DNA from: Natribaculum luteum
GTDB lineage: Archaea; Halobacteriota; Halobacteria; Halobacteriales; Natrialbaceae
Length of the DNA: 64,000 bases
Assembly: GCF_023008545.1 (NCBI RefSeq)
Contig: NZ_CP095397.1
Span: 930,001 to 994,000 of the forward strand
Reading direction: 5' to 3'
Below, in pieces: positions 50,412 to 58,665 of the stretch. Position 1 is the stretch's first letter. Each line of letters starts with the position of its first letter. Made by a program: the position numbers and the translations under genes. The notes under the pieces were generated by a model, which was not told the DNA's origin, did not search any database, and saw only the letters and a list, made by a program, of their open reading frames with translations.

Positions 50412-50921
50412 TCACCCGCTCGACGCGTCCTCGGCGTCGGGGTCATCCGCGTCCGCTCCACCGTCGGCGTCCTCGTTCGGCGACTCGAGGGACGCGTCGT
50501 CGGTCTCGTCGGGGTGATCGGTGGCGGCCAGGCCGTCGCTCTCGCCGTCCGTGGTCGGCGGCTCGTCCTCGAGTGTGGCGTTCTCCTCGCCAGCCGCGCT
50601 CGAATCCGACTCGTTTTCGGCGAATCGCGTATCGTTCGTCGGGGTCCACGAGGTGCCGTTCTGGCCGTCGTTCGTCTCGTTTTCCACGCCACCGTGTGCG
50701 TGGGGCCTGGCCTCGTCATCACCAGGTTCGTCGGTCGGCCCGTCGTCGCTGGATCGGTCGCCCCCGACGACGGTCACCGCGAACGACTCGTCGGTCGAGA
50801 ACGTCCCCGAAACGGACTCGGTCGCAGTAAACAGGCCGACAGTGACGAACCCGCCGGCGAACCCACCCGTCACGACGAGCGCACAGAGGACGACGACGGC
50901 GACGCCTCGAATCGACGTCAT
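50412..50921 (-). CDS. Secreted acidic protein with SipW-cognate-like signal (last gene of cluster)
   Basis: The 169-residue protein has a hydrophobic N-terminal segment (about 6-30, ValAlaValValValLeuCysAlaLeuVal). It is followed by LeuPheThrAlaThrGluSerValSerGlyThrPheSerThr, which resembles the [AY]xFSDxExxxGNxxxAG class. The rest is an Asp/Glu/Ser/Asn-rich, probably disordered tail with possible N-glycosylation sites (AsnGluThr, AsnGlyThr, AsnAspThr). No C-terminal membrane segment is present. It overlaps the signal peptidase gene by ATGA (50918-50921). Confidence 0.7.
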   Translation of the reverse strand: MTSIRGVAVVVLCALVVTGGFAGGFVTVGLFTATESVSGTFSTDESFAVTVVGGDRSSDDGPTDEPGDDEARPHAHGGVENETNDGQNGTSWTPTNDTRFAENESDSSAAGEENATLEDEPPTTDGESDGLAATDHPDETDDASLESPNEDADGGADADDPDAEDASSG

Positions 50922-51766
50922 CGGTCGTCCTCCTCGAGCGTTCCGCCGTCGGCCGTCGGATGCGCGGTCTCGGTCGTCGGCTCCGGCGGCTCGGCTTCCC
51001 GGGCCGATGTGGACGCTGTGTCACCTTCGCCAGCGGACAGCCGCATCGAGAGCCACAGCCCGCCGACGGCGAGCAACGAGAACGCCGACGCGAACGCCAC
51101 CGCCGTCGTCAGCGTCGTCTGCAACTCGAGGGCCACGTAGACGGCGTACGGCGTGACCAGGGCGAGAACTCCCGTCGACAACAGGAGGTCGTTCGCGGTG
51201 ATCGTCACTGCCGCGTCCGCGGAACTCACGGTCGAGTCGGTGGCGACCCGGCCATTCGACTCCGTCGTTTCGGAACCGTGTCGCACGAGCGCCCACAGTT
51301 CCGTCAGAACGAGCAACGAAAGCGGGACGGCGACGAGCAGGACGAACCCGATCGTCGAGTTCGTCGCCCGGATCACGTATCCGATGTACGGGATCGTGAA
51401 GACGACGACGCCGATCACGTTCGCCGCCGGAATCGGGGTCGAGTCTACGTCGTCGTTCGCGTCGCCTTTCGTCTCGAAGACGGGACCCGTCTCCGTCTCG
51501 CGGACGTCGACGACGCGATGTGTTACCGGCGTCTTCGCGTCGCCTCGAGTGAACGTGATGACGTCCCCGTCGGCGATCGCCGTCGGCGCTCGCTCGTCGA
51601 CGACGACCACGTCGCCGGGTTCGATCGTCGGTTCCATGCTCCCCGAGAGCACGACGAAACTGTACTCGGCACCGACCACGCCCGGGACCGCGTAGACGAC
51701 GAACGGGACGACGAGGGCGATCAACAGCACGGAACCGAGCACGTTCGCGACTTGTCTGGTATTCAT
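50918..51766 (-). CDS. ER-type signal peptidase I (SipW-like)
   Basis: The 282-residue membrane protease removes signal peptides. An N-terminal helix (about 10-31) precedes the box SerGlySerMetGluProThr (41-47, catalytic Ser43). The second catalytic residue is His83 (ValThrHisArgVal), and the Asp is in LysGlyAspAlaAsnAsp (about 102). Ser-His-Asp instead of Ser-Lys marks the ER/archaeal/SipW type. Two further helices and an acidic tail follow. It overlaps both neighbours by ATGA and so is co-translated with its putative substrates. Confidence 0.92.
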   Translation of the reverse strand: MNTRQVANVLGSVLLIALVVPFVVYAVPGVVGAEYSFVVLSGSMEPTIEPGDVVVVDERAPTAIADGDVITFTRGDAKTPVTHRVVDVRETETGPVFETKGDANDDVDSTPIPAANVIGVVVFTIPYIGYVIRATNSTIGFVLLVAVPLSLLVLTELWALVRHGSETTESNGRVATDSTVSSADAAVTITANDLLLSTGVLALVTPYAVYVALELQTTLTTAVAFASAFSLLAVGGLWLSMRLSAGEGDTASTSAREAEPPEPTTETAHPTADGGTLEEDDR

Positions 51767-53271
51767 CGTCCTGTCACCTCACAGAGTGGGTTCCGTCGCC
51801 GATCGAACGCCTCGAGGACGGTCAGCGAGTACGTCCCGTCCGTCACGACCGTCCCGGGACCGAACGGCTCGGAACAGCTCGTATGAAAGTCGCCGATCGA
51901 CCGGGTTCCGTCGGCCGTGACGACGGTCACGTCGAAGTCCGGTCGCCCACTGTCGGCGAGCTCGAGCGTGAACGACTCGCCCGCGTCGATTCCGAAGACG
52001 CTGATCGTCGACCCGTTCCTGCCAGCCTGAGTGACGACGATGGTCGCGTCGTCCGCTGGCCCCGCGTACTCGAACGTCGCCTCGACCGCGCGGTGGTCGC
52101 TGCCGTCCGCACAGGGGACGCAGTCGAGATCGGATTCGTCGTCATCGTCGCTCTCGTCGCCGTCGGCACAGACGGAGACTGTGACGTTACTGATCCCGGG
52201 CCGTTCGTGGTCCGCGCGCTCGTCTGGATCGTCCCGGTCGCCGTGGGCAGCACAGAGTTCGCCCCGCGTCCGGGTCGACGGTGGCTCGATCGCGTACTCG
52301 ACGATCCGCGACTCGGGGTCCGAGGGATGGTCGCCGCCGTCCGACCCACCTGGCTCGTCGCCAGCCGGGGGCGTGCCGCGAGGGATGCCGCCGCCGATTG
52401 CCACCGCACAGATCGGCGGTGCATTTCGCTCCTCGCCGTCTTTCAGCAGCCGGAAGCTCGCACAGACCGTCTCGCGCTCGCCGTCGTCGCGCTTGTCCGT
52501 CACGGAGAGGACCTGAAGCTGGTACTCGTCGGTGATCAGGTACGTCTCTCCGGCCTCGAGCCGACCGCCCTCGACGTCGATCGTGCCGAGTTCGACGCAG
52601 TCCGCCGGTGGGCAGTCGAGTTCGGGACAACGAACGTCCGCGAACGGGCCGTCTCCGACGTCGGCCTCGGACACGTGCCGGCACTGCTCGGCGTAGAACT
52701 CGAGTTCGAGGCCGCTCTCGGCGGCAGTCGTCCACGTCGCGTCGGACGGAAGTCGGTAGCGAAAGACGAGACAGCGCTCCTCGCCCGTAGAGAGGCACGG
52801 CTGGTCGGGACCGTCGAGGCGCAGTCCGTCGGCGAGCGCACGACGGAGACCGTCCAGGGTTCCCCACCCCGACGCCGGGAACGTCGTGCTCCCGCCGGAA
52901 CGGCAGTCGTCGACGACGAGCTGGACCTCGAGGACGGAGCCGAGCGGATCGGCGATGGGTGGACAGTCGGTCCGGAGCCACACGCGAACGGGGTTCCCGT
53001 CGTCGTGGACGGCCAGACGGAACCGCTCGACGCCGGCGTCGCCGGGACGGAGCCCGTCGAACGCGAACGCGATGCGGCCGTCCGTCTCGGAACACGCGTC
53101 GGAGTCACAGCGAACGTCGATCCCGACGCGTCCCGCCTGCTGTGTGCCCGTAAACGACTCGAGGTCGCTCAGGTACGCACCGGTGCCAGCGCCGCCGGCG
53201 ACGCCGAACGCGCCGAGACCGACGCCCGCGAGTAACCGGCGACGGCTCAACCGGGTGGGGTCGCGGCTCAC
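51763..53271 (-). CDS. SipW-cognate-like secreted protein (TasA-like, with DUF7467-type C-terminus)
   Basis: The 502-residue exported protein starts at GTG. SerArgArgArgLeuLeuAlaGly (9-16) is a twin-arginine motif, then a Gly/Ala core and AlaTyrLeuSerAspLeuGluSer (32-39), the SipW-cognate class signature. A beta-sandwich follows, ending GluPheTyrAlaGluGlnCysArgHis (191-199). A second region (225-500) has paired cysteines and ThrIleSerValPheGly strands like the DUF7467 group. About 20 cysteines suggest disulphides. The open frame runs upstream, but only this GTG gives a normal signal peptide. Confidence 0.8.
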   Translation of the reverse strand: MSRDPTRLSRRRLLAGVGLGAFGVAGGAGTGAYLSDLESFTGTQQAGRVGIDVRCDSDACSETDGRIAFAFDGLRPGDAGVERFRLAVHDDGNPVRVWLRTDCPPIADPLGSVLEVQLVVDDCRSGGSTTFPASGWGTLDGLRRALADGLRLDGPDQPCLSTGEERCLVFRYRLPSDATWTTAAESGLELEFYAEQCRHVSEADVGDGPFADVRCPELDCPPADCVELGTIDVEGGRLEAGETYLITDEYQLQVLSVTDKRDDGERETVCASFRLLKDGEERNAPPICAVAIGGGIPRGTPPAGDEPGGSDGGDHPSDPESRIVEYAIEPPSTRTRGELCAAHGDRDDPDERADHERPGISNVTVSVCADGDESDDDDESDLDCVPCADGSDHRAVEATFEYAGPADDATIVVTQAGRNGSTISVFGIDAGESFTLELADSGRPDFDVTVVTADGTRSIGDFHTSCSEPFGPGTVVTDGTYSLTVLEAFDRRRNPLCEVTGR

Positions 53272-53332
53272 GGCGTCCCTCCACGTCGGACGGGCGGTGA
53301 CGTCGCCGTCCGCTCCGTCTCCCCCCTCGTGA

Positions 53333-54040
53333 TCATCGGCGCACCCCACACTGTTCTGCGCCGACGTCGATCCCGAACTCGACGGATTCGCCTTGCCACT
53401 CGTTGCTGACGGCTGTCGCAGTCCGCCAGGCGATGCCGAGACAGAGCCGCTCGCCCTCCGGGAGACAGTCGTCGAGGCCGGGACGGAGGAGCAGCCCCTC
53501 CGTATCTGGACCGTACGCCTCGCCGAACTGGGCGAGCGAGCACTCGAGGTCGGGGTTCGCCGGCACCGTCGCGGTTCCGGCACAGCCGCCGATGCCGAAG
53601 ATCCCGGTGTCGTACCACAGCGAGACGTCGATCACCTCGCTCAGTCTTCCCGAGACGGACGGGAACAGCCGAACGCGGGCGTTCATCTCCTCGGCGACCA
53701 GTCCGATGCCGATCGTTCCCGAGTCCCCGGGGAGGACGTTCGTCTCCCGGACGAGGGGGCCGTGTGTCTCCACGTCGTAGTCGTCGACGTACTCCTCGAG
53801 CGGGCCGTCCCCGGTCTCGCCGGTCGACGTCGCGTTCGTCGGTTCGCCGTTGTAGGTGCTGTACCAGGCGACGCGGAGCCGGGGGCCGTCGTCGCCCGCC
53901 GTCTGTGCGTAGGTGTAGCTCGTGTACGCGGGTGCGTCAGCCGTGACGGACGCCCGTCTGACCCCGGCGGTCGCGATCGCGGTCGTGCCGACGCAGCCGA
54001 GTAGTTGTCGTCTTGTGATGGCGGAGATTCGTCGTGTCAC
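53333..54040 (-). CDS. SipW-cognate-like secreted protein (compact TasA-like)
   Basis: The 235-residue protein starts at GTG. It has ThrArgArgGlnLeuLeuGly (9-15), a short hydrophobic region, a degenerate cleavage box and AlaTrpTyrSerThrTyrAsnGly (about 60), which parallels AspTyrLysSerThrTyrThrGly in the vWA protein. The C-terminal strands ValGluPheGlyIleAspValGlyAlaGluGlnCys match the PheTyrAlaGluGln ending of the sister proteins. It is a compact beta-sandwich of the same family. It is second in the cluster order and 266 bp downstream of the vWA gene. Confidence 0.75.
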   Translation of the reverse strand: MTRRISAITRRQLLGCVGTTAIATAGVRRASVTADAPAYTSYTYAQTAGDDGPRLRVAWYSTYNGEPTNATSTGETGDGPLEEYVDDYDVETHGPLVRETNVLPGDSGTIGIGLVAEEMNARVRLFPSVSGRLSEVIDVSLWYDTGIFGIGGCAGTATVPANPDLECSLAQFGEAYGPDTEGLLLRPGLDDCLPEGERLCLGIAWRTATAVSNEWQGESVEFGIDVGAEQCGVRR

Positions 54041-54306
54041 TGTCTGTCCTCCGGTTGTTCGGTCGTCCAGTCGTGGCCGATCGTGGCTCGCCCTCGCGCC
54101 GGCCACGGCCCCCGTCGATGCCGGTGGTGGCACACCGACGGGGATATGAATGAGCACCGTACCGTCCGCGACCGATCACGGCAGGGTCGTGCTTCCGTCG
54201 AACGGGACGGGGCAAGACGGTCCTACCGTCACGGATGGGCCACCGAACCGCCCGTAACGTTCGCCCGAAACGTGCCGGCACGGGGCGTCGCTCGAGCGTC
54301 GTCGAC

Positions 54307-55788
54307 TCACTGCGCGCTCGAGTCGGCGGCGAACGGGTTCGTCGGGTCGTCGTTGTGACGAGATTGTTCGGCGTAGAACCCGACGTCGAACGAGACGGAG
54401 TCGGTCTGGACCTCGTTGCCGACGTCGATCGGCAGTTCCCACTCGAGGCCGATACACTGGGTCAGCCCGCCCGCGAACGGCTCGCGCGCCTCGCTGGACC
54501 GATTGCCGTCGAGTGCGACGCCCTCCGAGAGGTGCTCCATCGTCTCCCGGAGCGTCCCCTCGTAGATGAGCGTCTCGCCCGCGAGCGTCTCCGCGACCTG
54601 TGCGAACACCTGCTCGATGGCGGCGTCGTCCACCGCGAAGAACACGTGCTCGTCGGTCGGTTCGCTGGCGAACTCTTCGAGATCCGCCTGGGTGGTGCCG
54701 CCGACGCCGAGCGCGTAGGTCTCGGTTCCGGCATTTTTGACGGTGTCGCCCGCATTCGCGGGGGCCGTTCCCGCGTTGTTCTGTCCGTCCGTCAGGACGA
54801 CCATCACCCGGTTGTCGTGTGTGTAGTTCTCGAGGTCCGACTGTCCGGTGAGAAGGCCCTCGCCGATCGCGGTCGAACCCCCGTCGGCGGGCAACGAGTC
54901 GATCGCACTCTCGACGGAGGCGTAGTCGCCCGTCAGCGACTGGACGACCTGTGCACTCTCGTCGTACCCGGCGGCGCTGAAGAACGTGACGCCGACCTGA
55001 TTGTCGGGATCGCCCTCCGTGAGAATCTTCTCTGCGAGGGCCTTCGCGCCCGCGATCGTCTGCTGGTTGCGGCTTCCGGACATCGAGCCGGAGGCGTCGA
55101 GTACCAGTTCGACGCAGACGGGCCCGTCGTCGCCTCTACCGGGTTCGTAGACGTTGTCACAGTCCTCGTCGTACCACACTGTGACGTCGATCGCGTCGGC
55201 GAGCTGTCCCTCGCCGTCGGGGTCGTCCGTGGAGACGCCCATCGCTTCCAGCGCGTCGACCTCGGGTTCGGTGTAGCCGTTCTGGGCGTTCTCGGTGAGT
55301 TCGCCGGTCATCCACACCCACGCGGGGTTGTCGCAGATGTGGAAACTGATCGTCACCTCGCCCGAGTCGCCGGGCTTGACGTCCTCGAGTGTGAACACCG
55401 GGATCTCGTCGCCGTTGACGAGGTTGAGCTCCGGGTCACACAGGTCCAGCTCCTGGACCTTGGTGGTCCAGTCGAGCGAGCCCACGTCCGGCACCTCACC
55501 GGTCAGGTAGACGCCGTCGCCCAGGTCCTCCACGTCGAAGTCGGGGTACATCGCGTCCACCTCCGCGAGCCGTCCCGGCCCACCCGTGTACGTGGACTTG
55601 TAGTCGAGTTTCAGGTCGAGTTCGCCCGCACTCAGGCTGTTCCCCGCGAACCCCTCCCCGTCGGAGAAGTACGCCGTGGTTCCGAGCGCTGCACCCGCAG
55701 ACGCGACGCCGATCGCGCCGATCCCACCGAGGACGCGTCGGCGAGACAGTCCGATTCCGCTGTCGTCTCTCTCTCGTTCGTCAGTCAT
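54307..55788 (-). CDS. vWA domain nested in a SipW-cognate/TasA-like secreted protein
   Basis: The 493-residue exported protein has SerArgArgArgValLeuGly (15-21) and ThrAlaTyrPheSerAspGlyGlu (38-45), with GlyAsnSerLeuSerAlaGlyGluLeuAspLeu (49-59). The beta-sandwich runs to ValTrpTyrAspGluAspCysAspAsn (204-212). A vWA domain follows, with the MIDAS DASGSMS at 231-237 and the metal threonine/asp region ValLeuThrAspGlyGln (331-336). Then the sandwich resumes at ThrLeuIleTyrGluGlyThrLeuArg (406-414) and closes with PheTyrAlaGluGlnSerArgHis. The insertion of vWA inside the sandwich is the notable point. Confidence 0.88.
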   Translation of the reverse strand: MTDERERDDSGIGLSRRRVLGGIGAIGVASAGAALGTTAYFSDGEGFAGNSLSAGELDLKLDYKSTYTGGPGRLAEVDAMYPDFDVEDLGDGVYLTGEVPDVGSLDWTTKVQELDLCDPELNLVNGDEIPVFTLEDVKPGDSGEVTISFHICDNPAWVWMTGELTENAQNGYTEPEVDALEAMGVSTDDPDGEGQLADAIDVTVWYDEDCDNVYEPGRGDDGPVCVELVLDASGSMSGSRNQQTIAGAKALAEKILTEGDPDNQVGVTFFSAAGYDESAQVVQSLTGDYASVESAIDSLPADGGSTAIGEGLLTGQSDLENYTHDNRVMVVLTDGQNNAGTAPANAGDTVKNAGTETYALGVGGTTQADLEEFASEPTDEHVFFAVDDAAIEQVFAQVAETLAGETLIYEGTLRETMEHLSEGVALDGNRSSEAREPFAGGLTQCIGLEWELPIDVGNEVQTDSVSFDVGFYAEQSRHNDDPTNPFAADSSAQ

Positions 55789-56176
55789 GGTTGGTTGTCC
55801 CGAACGGCCGACGGACCCTCGCGAGTCGGCTGCCGTTCAGTCGTCGAAACAGGTGGTGTCTGCCCTCGTAGTTACGAGCCGACACGTCGGCGTCGAACGA
55901 GACGATCGATCCCTGACGGCCGCGTCGAATCGACGATTCGACCGTCGTACGGCCGTCCAACCGGGATCATCGTCCGCTCGATCGGGCCAGCAAGGTCGCC
56001 CTGCCGGGTTCACACCGACGACCTCGAGCGGCGGTACGGGTCCCGTGTCGGTCGCGACGCGACCGGTTCGACGCCCCTGCCAGCGCGAAAAGAAGCGGTA
56101 TCGCCGACGGTACGGTCCACATGCTGACGTGTGTCCAGTCGAGAGTCCCTCACGACAGGGGTACGCGCCGACGCCG
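55789..56176. other. Divergent intergenic region of the SipW cluster
   Basis: This 388-bp spacer separates the cluster from the divergent DUF7344 gene. I see no ORF of note. It contains two centred palindromes: GTCGAATC-GAC-GATTCGAC at 55924-55942 and CGGTCGC-GAC-GCGACCG at 56049-56065. These are candidate operators. No clear TATA box stands before the cluster's first ATG (55788). Confidence 0.45.
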
Positions 56177-56707
56177 ATGTTCAGAACCAACGTCCTTCCC
56201 GAAGGAGAAATCTACGACGTCCTCGCGAACAGCCGCCGCCGCGAGACGCTCCGGTACCTGACGGACTCGAGCGCCGGCTCGATCACGCTCCGGGAGCTCT
56301 CCGTCGCCATCGCCGCCGACGAAACCGGCCAGTCACCGCCCCCGAAAAGGGTTCGCGAGAGCGTCTACAACTCGCTTCACCAGACGCACCTGCCGAAACT
56401 CGACGAACTGGGTGTCGTCACGTACAATCGTGACTCGAGAACGGTGACGCTGCGCGAGCGGGCACGCGAGGTCGACCGCTATATGGAGGTGCTCACGCGC
56501 TACGGCGTCACCTGGAGCGAACTGTACCGCAGTCTCGGCGTCGTCTCGCTGCTCGTCGTCGTCGCCGCCTTGCTCGAGGTGCCGTTCGTAAGCGCGGTCG
56601 ATCCGTTGCTGTGGACGAGCGGCTTCCTCGCGCTGTTCGCCGGCGTGATCGCCTCCCAGCTCTGGTCGAACCGCTGGTACGTGCTCCAGGCACTTCGCCC
56701 CCGATAG
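56177..56707 (+). CDS. Membrane-anchored winged-helix regulator (DUF7344)
   Basis: The 176-residue protein has an N-terminal winged-helix region (about 8-105) with AspValLeuAlaAsnSerArgArgArgGluThrLeuArgTyrLeu. A SerValTyrAsnSerLeuHisGlnThrHisLeuProLysLeuAsp block follows, then two membrane helices (about 118-140 and 142-164) and a short cytoplasmic end. This is the DUF7344 arrangement. It may sense the membrane or export state and regulate the divergent SipW cluster; that is inference. A second copy lies at 58087. Confidence 0.85.
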   Translation: MFRTNVLPEGEIYDVLANSRRRETLRYLTDSSAGSITLRELSVAIAADETGQSPPPKRVRESVYNSLHQTHLPKLDELGVVTYNRDSRTVTLRERAREVDRYMEVLTRYGVTWSELYRSLGVVSLLVVVAALLEVPFVSAVDPLLWTSGFLALFAGVIASQLWSNRWYVLQALRPR

Positions 56708-56828: not shown

Positions 56829-57638
56829 CTACTCGTCCTCGAGTTCGGTGGGATCGACGTCCATCTCGAACAGCCGGGCGTCACACTCGACGCACGTGGC
56901 GGCGACGACGTCTCGACGCCGACAGCAGGATTCGACGACGTCCTGTGAGAGGGCAACCGTCCCGCCACAGGCCGGACAGTGCTCGATGAACAGCCGGAGC
57001 ATACCGAGCAGTTCCCACCTGAGCGCGAGCGGGTAGTGCTCCCAGTTCGGGTCCCACGCTGGGAGTTCTGCGGCTGCTGCTGCGTCGGCGACGCACGCGG
57101 CCCGCGACGGCCAGTTCGCCAGCTGGGCGTCGTCCGCCCACGCGACGACCGCCTGCGGGCGTTCGTCGAGTTCGAGGCGCGTCGAATCGACCTTCGCGAA
57201 CTGGCCGAGACTCTCCCGGATCTCCGTCTCGTCCGTCCAGTGGGCTTCGATCGAACGCTCCCACGTACCGGCAAACGCGCGGTCGAGTACCAGGTCGTCC
57301 GCGTCCGGATCGTCGACGACGACGCCAACCTCGAGTAACGACTCCGCCGGATCGCGTCGTTCCCGGTCGATCCGCGTCGGCGTCTCGTCGAACAGCGCGA
57401 GAAACCGATCGGGGACGTACCGCTTCGTGATCGTCGGCGTGCCTGGAATCAGGTAGCCACGGAAGTAGACGATCGTGACCGCCCCTGCAAACGTCGCCAC
57501 GCCCGCACCGACCGCGAGCGCACCGTCGATCTCGGCGACCGCGCTCGCGACCGCGATCGCAAGGACCGCGGCGATCACGAGGTTGAGAATCGTACAGGGA
57601 CGACACCGGTTTTCGCCCGTATACGAGGGGTGTTTCAT
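56829..57638 (-). CDS. Membrane protein with C-terminal zinc-binding cysteines, unknown family
   Basis: The 269-residue protein begins HisProSerTyrThrGlyGluAsnArgCysArgProCysThr, then has two membrane helices (about 18-35 and 42-58). The long soluble part ends with CysProAlaCysGly, a CysCys pair and CysValGluCys, which could bind one or two zinc ions. I do not recognise the family with certainty. The ATG at 57638 is chosen because the preceding in-frame residues are not part of the conserved start. It separates the two DUF7344 genes. Confidence 0.75.
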   Translation of the reverse strand: MKHPSYTGENRCRPCTILNLVIAAVLAIAVASAVAEIDGALAVGAGVATFAGAVTIVYFRGYLIPGTPTITKRYVPDRFLALFDETPTRIDRERRDPAESLLEVGVVVDDPDADDLVLDRAFAGTWERSIEAHWTDETEIRESLGQFAKVDSTRLELDERPQAVVAWADDAQLANWPSRAACVADAAAAAELPAWDPNWEHYPLALRWELLGMLRLFIEHCPACGGTVALSQDVVESCCRRRDVVAATCVECDARLFEMDVDPTELEDE

Positions 57639-58086
57639 CGCTTCCAGAGCCGCGTGTAACTGTGTGACGACGTACATACCACGCGTCGACACCCTCGAGA
57701 GGTAGTTGTATGCCCCCTACTCACTCGACTCGCCGTTCCTGCTGGTCACCAAACGGTGCTCCCGATCGGAAGCGCCGGCCGACGACGACCGACTCGATCA
57801 CCGGACGTCCCAAACAGAAATGTAAAAATTTAATACATACTCGAATACGTACACTCTGGATAGTATCGCCAGCGGTTTGGACAGCCTACCGGCCGGTTAC
57901 CAGCGCGTGGAAGTCGATGCCATCACATTAATCTCTTGATATCTACATGAATTAACTACGTACAATATATAGAAAAATAAGTTCTATCTCCTGACTGCAT
58001 ACCGGCACGTCCTTTTGTATAATCATAAAGATACAGAATATAACAACGAAAACACATATGTTATTCTGAATCTGTACACTGTTCTC
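57639..58086. other. AT-rich intergenic region between the zinc membrane protein and the second DUF7344 gene
   Basis: The first 180 bp are host-like. From about 57815 to 58085 the region is strikingly AT-rich for this genome (TAAAAATTTAATACATAC; TACAATATATAGAAAAATAAG; TTTTGTATAATCATAAAG). No gene is seen. It may carry several promoters or mark acquired DNA or an old insertion site. Confidence 0.55.
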
Positions 58087-58665
58087 ATGGGGGGCGAGGC
58101 TATGGCCAGCGCGGAACAGACTACAGAAGCGGACGAATCGACACCACCGGACGGCGAGTCGCTCTCGAGAGACACGGTCTTTCAGACGCTCTCGAACCGT
58201 CGTCGCCGTCGCGCACTCCGGTACTTGATCCAGCATCGAAACGACGAAACGGTTCGGATGCGCGACCTCTCCGAGTGGATCGCCGCGGAGGAAAACGGCG
58301 TCTCGAGGGGGCAAGTGACGTACAAACAGCGAAAGCGGGTGTACACGTCGCTGTACCAGTCACACCTGCCGGCGCTGCACAGAGACGGGATCGTCGACTA
58401 CGACCGTGCCAGGGGAACGGTGTCGTTGACGCCTGTCGCCACCGAGTTCGACACGTACCTCGAGACGACATCGGAGAACGACCGTTCGTGGAGCACGTAC
58501 TGGCTCGGACTCGGCGTAACCGCCGTCACGGTCTCGGTCGTCGCCTTGCTTGGCGTCGTGCCGGCTCTCTCGAGAACCAGCCACCTCCTCGCGGTCGCGA
58601 TCTCGCTCGCGCTGTTCGCGTCCGCCGTCGTCTTCGCCAGCGTCGGAGGGCGTGACAGCAGCTGA
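58087..58665 (+). CDS. Second membrane-anchored winged-helix regulator (DUF7344)
   Basis: The 192-residue protein has the same design as the 56177 protein: ArgAspThrValPheGlnThrLeuSerAsnArgArgArg, then a conserved ArgValTyrThrSerLeuTyrGlnSerHisLeuProAlaLeu block and two C-terminal helices (about 140-158 and 163-182). The start may also be the ATG at 58102 (187 residues). It follows a long AT-rich promoter region and is 96 bp upstream of mutS, same strand. Target genes are unknown. Confidence 0.85.
   Translation: MGGEAMASAEQTTEADESTPPDGESLSRDTVFQTLSNRRRRRALRYLIQHRNDETVRMRDLSEWIAAEENGVSRGQVTYKQRKRVYTSLYQSHLPALHRDGIVDYDRARGTVSLTPVATEFDTYLETTSENDRSWSTYWLGLGVTAVTVSVVALLGVVPALSRTSHLLAVAISLALFASAVVFASVGGRDSS

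Follow-up and report, generated by a model that had tools for sequence, protein, structure and literature searches.

TasA fibres of Bacillus are established to assemble by donor-strand exchange, with TapA donating a strand (PMC9674648, PMC10151520), and in B. cereus the polymerisation of CalY is controlled by CapP, a protein with a disordered C-domain (PMC13082335). Among archaea, TasA-related filaments are represented by the bundling pili (AbpA) of Pyrobaculum calidifontis, as mentioned in PMC9674648 and PMC10151520, and haloarchaea carry surface fimbriae exported by twin-arginine translocation (Tat), the tafi system (TafA-TafE; Galeva 2025, as cited in PMC12687288). In a 64,000-nucleotide stretch of the Natribaculum luteum genome (assembly GCF_023008545.1, contig NZ_CP095397.1, positions 930,001 to 994,000 of the forward strand; hereafter the window, numbered from its first letter), we analysed an operon encoding TasA-like proteins together with a SipW-type signal peptidase, which probably builds an adhesive TasA-type surface or matrix fibre via donor-strand exchange. 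TasA-like fibres and haloarchaeal Tat-fimbriae are already known; we describe the decorated TasA/SipW version as new and do not assign it to tafi, and in the literature searched we found no paper describing this haloarchaeal operon.

The locus resembles Bacillus TapA-SipW-TasA and B. cereus SipW-TasA-CapP-CalY in its SipW-type signals, its dedicated peptidase and a core related to TasA/camelysin that contains KPGD and final-strand motifs; as in TapA (PMC10151520), the N-terminal segment is the key part of an accessory protein. Unlike those fibres, the haloarchaeal ones would carry Tat-like rather than Sec signals, and their subunits have additional domains within them; in place of a folded TapA there is a donor-strand-like stub followed by an acidic, disordered tail, and the regulator belongs to DUF7344. 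Like the bundling pili, they would be archaeal TasA-related filaments. The AbpA subunit is undecorated, and a profile search of solved chains gave no sequence match of the window family to the AbpA chain, the sole match being the signal region of pilin 9p0a.

TasA-like proteins and the inserted vWA domain

Five minus-strand genes lie in the order that had been read from the sequence initially: a TasA-like subunit with an inserted von Willebrand factor A (vWA) domain (54307-55788, 493 aa), a compact TasA-like protein (53333-54040, 235 aa, GTG start), a large protein (51763-53271, 502 aa), a SipW/Sec11-type S26 signal peptidase (50918-51766, 282 aa) and an acidic protein (50412-50921, 169 aa). 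The ATGA overlaps reported at 51763-51766 and 50918-50921 are present in the sequence.

Profile comparison unites the vWA and compact proteins with the N-terminal half of the large protein in one TasA/camelysin-related family. Aligned to the subunit family with hhalign, the compact protein scored 99.8% (E 7.6e-29) over nearly its full length, and 99.6% against the insert-free core, while the N-terminal half of the large protein scored 99.9% (E 1.7e-35). The TasA-like identity proposed in the initial annotation was supported by two of the hidden Markov models it had named: the Pfam camelysin model PF12389 matched 33 of 47 subunit relatives in one set and 67 of 82 in another (best 7.8e-8), and the SipW-cognate signal model TIGR04088 matched 81 of the 82. 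The third, DUF7467, was found in the C-terminal half of 18 of 44 relatives of the large protein. In a genome search, the window vWA protein itself reached 20.8 bits against TIGR04088 (cut-off 19). TasA, whose query sequence was checked against PDB 8aur, scored above all 999 shuffles on the core profile, with colinear KPGD and N-x-x-Q-G-x-S...F-x-A-x-Q (final-strand) blocks. By hhalign, TasA and the subunit profile matched weakly (2-5% probability), and we relied instead on the Pfam, NCBIfam and fold evidence.

The fold evidence comes from the large protein, which has a TasA-like N-domain (residues ~1-210) and a beta-rich C-terminal half. Its model (predicted local distance difference test, pLDDT, 81.4; predicted template modelling score, pTM, 0.64) matched the TasA fibre 8aur in Foldseek with probability 1.00 and E 1.2e-3 but a TMt of 0.43; most of its other high-ranking matches were multi-domain beta proteins with TM-scores of 0.2 or less.

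The vWA protein carries a Tat-like signal, a SipW-type box (A39YFSDGE) and core strands at residues 59-206 and 407-475, between which lies the vWA domain (~225-403; Pfam VWA 1.3e-23) with a full metal ion-dependent adhesion site (MIDAS; DxSxS, T, D) at D231-S233-S235, T306 and D334. In the AlphaFold2 model (pLDDT 86.5, pTM 0.82) the core strands flank the vWA domain on both sides, and residues 1-53 are unplaced, with pLDDT below 50; an unplaced post-signal segment in the monomer is what would be expected of a donor strand. The vWA domain interrupts the TasA-like fold, and in relatives the same site is occupied by other domains. More than 100 residues separate the second and third core pieces in 62% of 229 mappable subunits; additions of that size lie between the first and second pieces in 16% and at the C-terminus in 28%. 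The inserts form 26 clusters, of which the largest is vWA with 97 members, 95 of them at the core position used in the window and 91 with a MIDAS-like motif. A phylum search with the insert-free core gave matches in 37 of 296 genomes. Since the matches outside the window's order lay mostly in frames of 203-282 aa, decoration of the subunit appears, from these sequences, to be mainly haloarchaeal. The vWA protein also gave a fold match to the vWA domain of Mfa5 (6tnj, E 2.7e-9), a type V pilus tip protein. As in such tip adhesins, a MIDAS-bearing vWA domain would sit on a pilus protein, here a putative fibre protein; unlike in Mfa5, it is spliced inside a TasA-like fold and may be present over the whole length of the fibre.

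In the subunit family, the N-terminal box that follows the signal and precedes the core ranks with the best-conserved parts. Of the post-signal boxes attributed to three of the exported proteins, those of the vWA protein (AYFSDGE, residue 39) and the large protein (AYLSDLE, residue 32) were found, and the strand motif FYAEQ was located at residues 471 and 192. The compact protein has no such box, and neither has any of its 57 homologues the A-Y-F-S-D box; it carries a Tat-like signal, STYNG at residue 61 and a terminal GAEQC, the latter two resembling regions of the other proteins. A role for it as an acceptor only was considered and not adopted, as an aromatic stretch, YTxYTYAQ, is conserved in its own N-terminal part.

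The acidic protein has the LFTATE-type box ascribed to it (GLFTATE at residue 29), preceded by a Sec-type signal and followed by a donor-strand-like stretch and a disordered acidic tail with 38 D/E and 3 K/R in 119 residues. Its hhalign match to the subunit family (91%) covers the signal and box alone, and its homologues conserve little besides the signal and the donor-strand-like segment. Rather than a TasA fold, this protein has a signal and a donor-strand-like stub with a disordered tail.

Peptidase, export signals and conservation of the operon

The peptidase is of the Ser-His-Asp type, as first read, with S43, H83, D102 and D108 invariant in 18 relatives. It scored 115 bits against TIGR02228 (cut-off 51.85) and 108 bits against the Bacillus SipW equivalog NF046067, below the curated cut-off of 190, and it resembles SEC11 structures (2.2e-19), with extra C-terminal transmembrane segments and a C-terminal tail. 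The genome holds further TIGR02228 peptidases, among which that of the cluster scores best.

Using a simple motif rule rather than SignalP, we found Tat-like signals in 204 of 253 haloarchaeal subunits, 52 of 64 large and 39 of 57 compact proteins, as against 4 of 50 acidic proteins; the rarity of the twin-arginine motif in the last group is in keeping with Sec export in an unfolded state. Four operons outside the haloarchaea (L122-L125) encode small TasA-like proteins, several per operon and undecorated, together with SipW-type peptidases; there the motif was absent from all 11 subunit-like proteins.

With the vWA protein as query, matches were obtained in 23 of 61 related genomes, part of them to the vWA domain only. 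Neighbourhoods were compared in a sample of twenty loci of ~20 kb and 67 further loci from a species-level genome collection. Across haloarchaeal genera, including Halorubrum, Halopenitus, Natronomonas, Haloarchaeobius, Halobellus, Halolamina, Natronorubrum, Natronococcus and others, the same order recurs: a helix-turn-helix (HTH) gene divergent from one to six TasA-like subunit genes, followed by the compact, large, SipW-type peptidase and acidic genes. Because of this recurrence the cluster is far beyond chance, and it is kept far beyond one strain. Of the two outcomes named at the outset as refuting the reading, a lack of similarity to TasA/camelysin folds and restriction to a single strain, neither was observed. 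Subunit, large and peptidase genes occurred together in 59 of 85 sampled loci, which also held the compact (48), acidic (40) and HTH (53) genes and, in 36 cases, three subunit genes; many of the compared loci are from Halorubrum, and the counts of loci and of the DNA element described below are not fully independent. Within the compact-large-SipW-acidic block the median gaps are -4, -1 and -4, indicating tight coupling, whereas subunit genes are spaced by ~120 bp, a difference that suggests a subunit cassette combined with an accessory block. Another layout was seen in loci L035, L044, L047 and L048, where HTH, SipW-type and acidic genes are convergent with a single decorated subunit gene.

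The divergent membrane HTH regulator noted at the outset (56177-56707, plus strand, 176 aa) matches Pfam DUF7344 (PF24035, 1.6e-28) and has two predicted transmembrane helices. An HTH gene of this family was recorded 60 times in divergent orientation to the first subunit gene. When the intervening DNA was searched for palindromic operators, nothing beyond short repeats came up, but the search led to the element GACGTG-N6-CGTAACTA, a candidate operator or core promoter, which in the window lies at 55869-55888 on the minus strand, ~80-100 bp upstream of the vWA gene. Of 58 divergent regions, 32 carry it with 13-14 of its 14 positions matching, as against ~0 in shuffles, and its orientation upstream of the subunit gene is constant. 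The window copy is the sole match with 0-1 mismatches in the 4.6 Mb genome.

The putative fibre and its alternatives

Taking these observations together, we infer that the haloarchaeal system forms a fibre or matrix. The vWA, compact and large proteins would be exported folded by Tat, and the SipW/Sec11-type peptidase of the operon would remove their signals. For the vWA and large proteins the cut would fall just before the A-Y-F/L-S-D box, leaving a free N-terminal strand that would complete the beta-sandwich of the next subunit, as in TasA; polymerisation by donor-strand exchange of this kind would require neither an ATPase nor a sortase. The vWA domain, carried in a subunit loop, would display metal-dependent adhesion domains on the fibre. 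The acidic protein, exported unfolded via Sec, probably starts or ends fibres, in a TapA-like or CapP-like role, since the donor-like segment alone is kept, and the large protein may use its extra C-domains to anchor or cap them. Control of the operon would fall to the divergent membrane HTH protein, which probably acts on the conserved element upstream. A more specific version, somewhat less likely than not, is a fibre of subunits folded in the cytoplasm, exported by Tat and released by a dedicated SipW peptidase for donor-strand exchange. Each subunit would have an interchangeable spliced domain, in many cases an integrin-like vWA, and an acidic protein reduced to the donor strand would act as starter or terminator.

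Several points weigh against a fibre. The proposal is built on sequences and single-chain models. Superposition of the large model on 8aur gave a TMt of only 0.43 with a poor root-mean-square deviation, and the direct score of TasA was narrow, at 9.7 bits against 8.5 for the best shuffle. The window vWA protein gave no match to PF12389 at E up to 1, nor did any protein in the genome, so that its family membership rests on relatives; its best 50 Foldseek matches were of vWA type alone, the vWA domain masking the core. The donor-strand function of the acidic protein is deduced from a short segment, and no cell-surface anchor was recognised for the operon. Finally, the window is the sole complete sampled locus with a single canonical subunit gene, where others have 2-6; the rod, if there is one, must here consist of the vWA-bearing or the compact protein.

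This last feature, the number and variety of the inserts (26 clusters) and the fact that the system is known from genes, with filaments deduced, would also suit secreted monomeric adhesins or binding proteins, in which the TasA-like core does no more than bear vWA and other domains on a stable scaffold, with no polymer formed. We regard this as unlikely, because the N-terminal box is highly conserved yet unplaced in the monomer, for which it would be needless, the acidic protein conserves little beyond that same segment, and a dedicated peptidase remains linked. More improbable still is a variant of tafi. Tat-type signals are common to both, assigned here by motif, and at three loci of the same genome (L135, L136, L137) Taf-like genes adjoin TIGR02228-type signal peptidases, with a DUF7344 HTH gene at two of them, which suggests a common regulator-plus-peptidase theme for Tat-exported fibres. 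These Taf-like proteins, however, are encoded at separate genomic loci and gave no significant match to the subunit models; the vWA protein scored 11.3 bits against the TafA model NF052520 (cut-off 190), over the signal alone, a model that other loci of the genome match better, and the mature regions show no significant similarity. The Pfam name of PF12389, Peptidase_M73, and the matches to it among relatives might point to camelysin-type metallopeptidases, a reading to which we give hardly any credence: by sequence reading, the mature window proteins contain no HExxH-type zinc motif, and the family includes the structural matrix proteins TasA and CalY (PMC10151520, PMC13082335).

If the operon does build a donor-strand fibre, the TasA matrix-fibre principle would reach a large group of archaea, and the subunit would be modular, with a single insertion site serving many different adhesion or binding domains. 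A donor-strand fibre would also raise the question of how a donor-strand polymer is made from subunits folded before Tat export. For the study of haloarchaeal biofilms, where defined matrix components are few, the locus offers a gene set and a DNA element.

Minor features of the locus

Between the compact and large genes, a 22-codon mini-open reading frame (MITRGETERTATSPPVRRGGTP; 53268-53336, minus strand, by sequence reading) bridges the stop of the former (ATGA) and the start of the latter (GTGA), and possibly couples their translation. A direct 4-base overlap joins the two genes in 33 of 46 compact-large pairs. Beyond the regulator, a minus-strand gene at 56829-57677 encodes two transmembrane helices and C-terminal CxxC pairs and matches no Pfam family. 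Of the loci searched, 43 have a homologue close to the operon, in many cases accompanied by another DUF7344 HTH gene, which in the window is found at 58015-58665.

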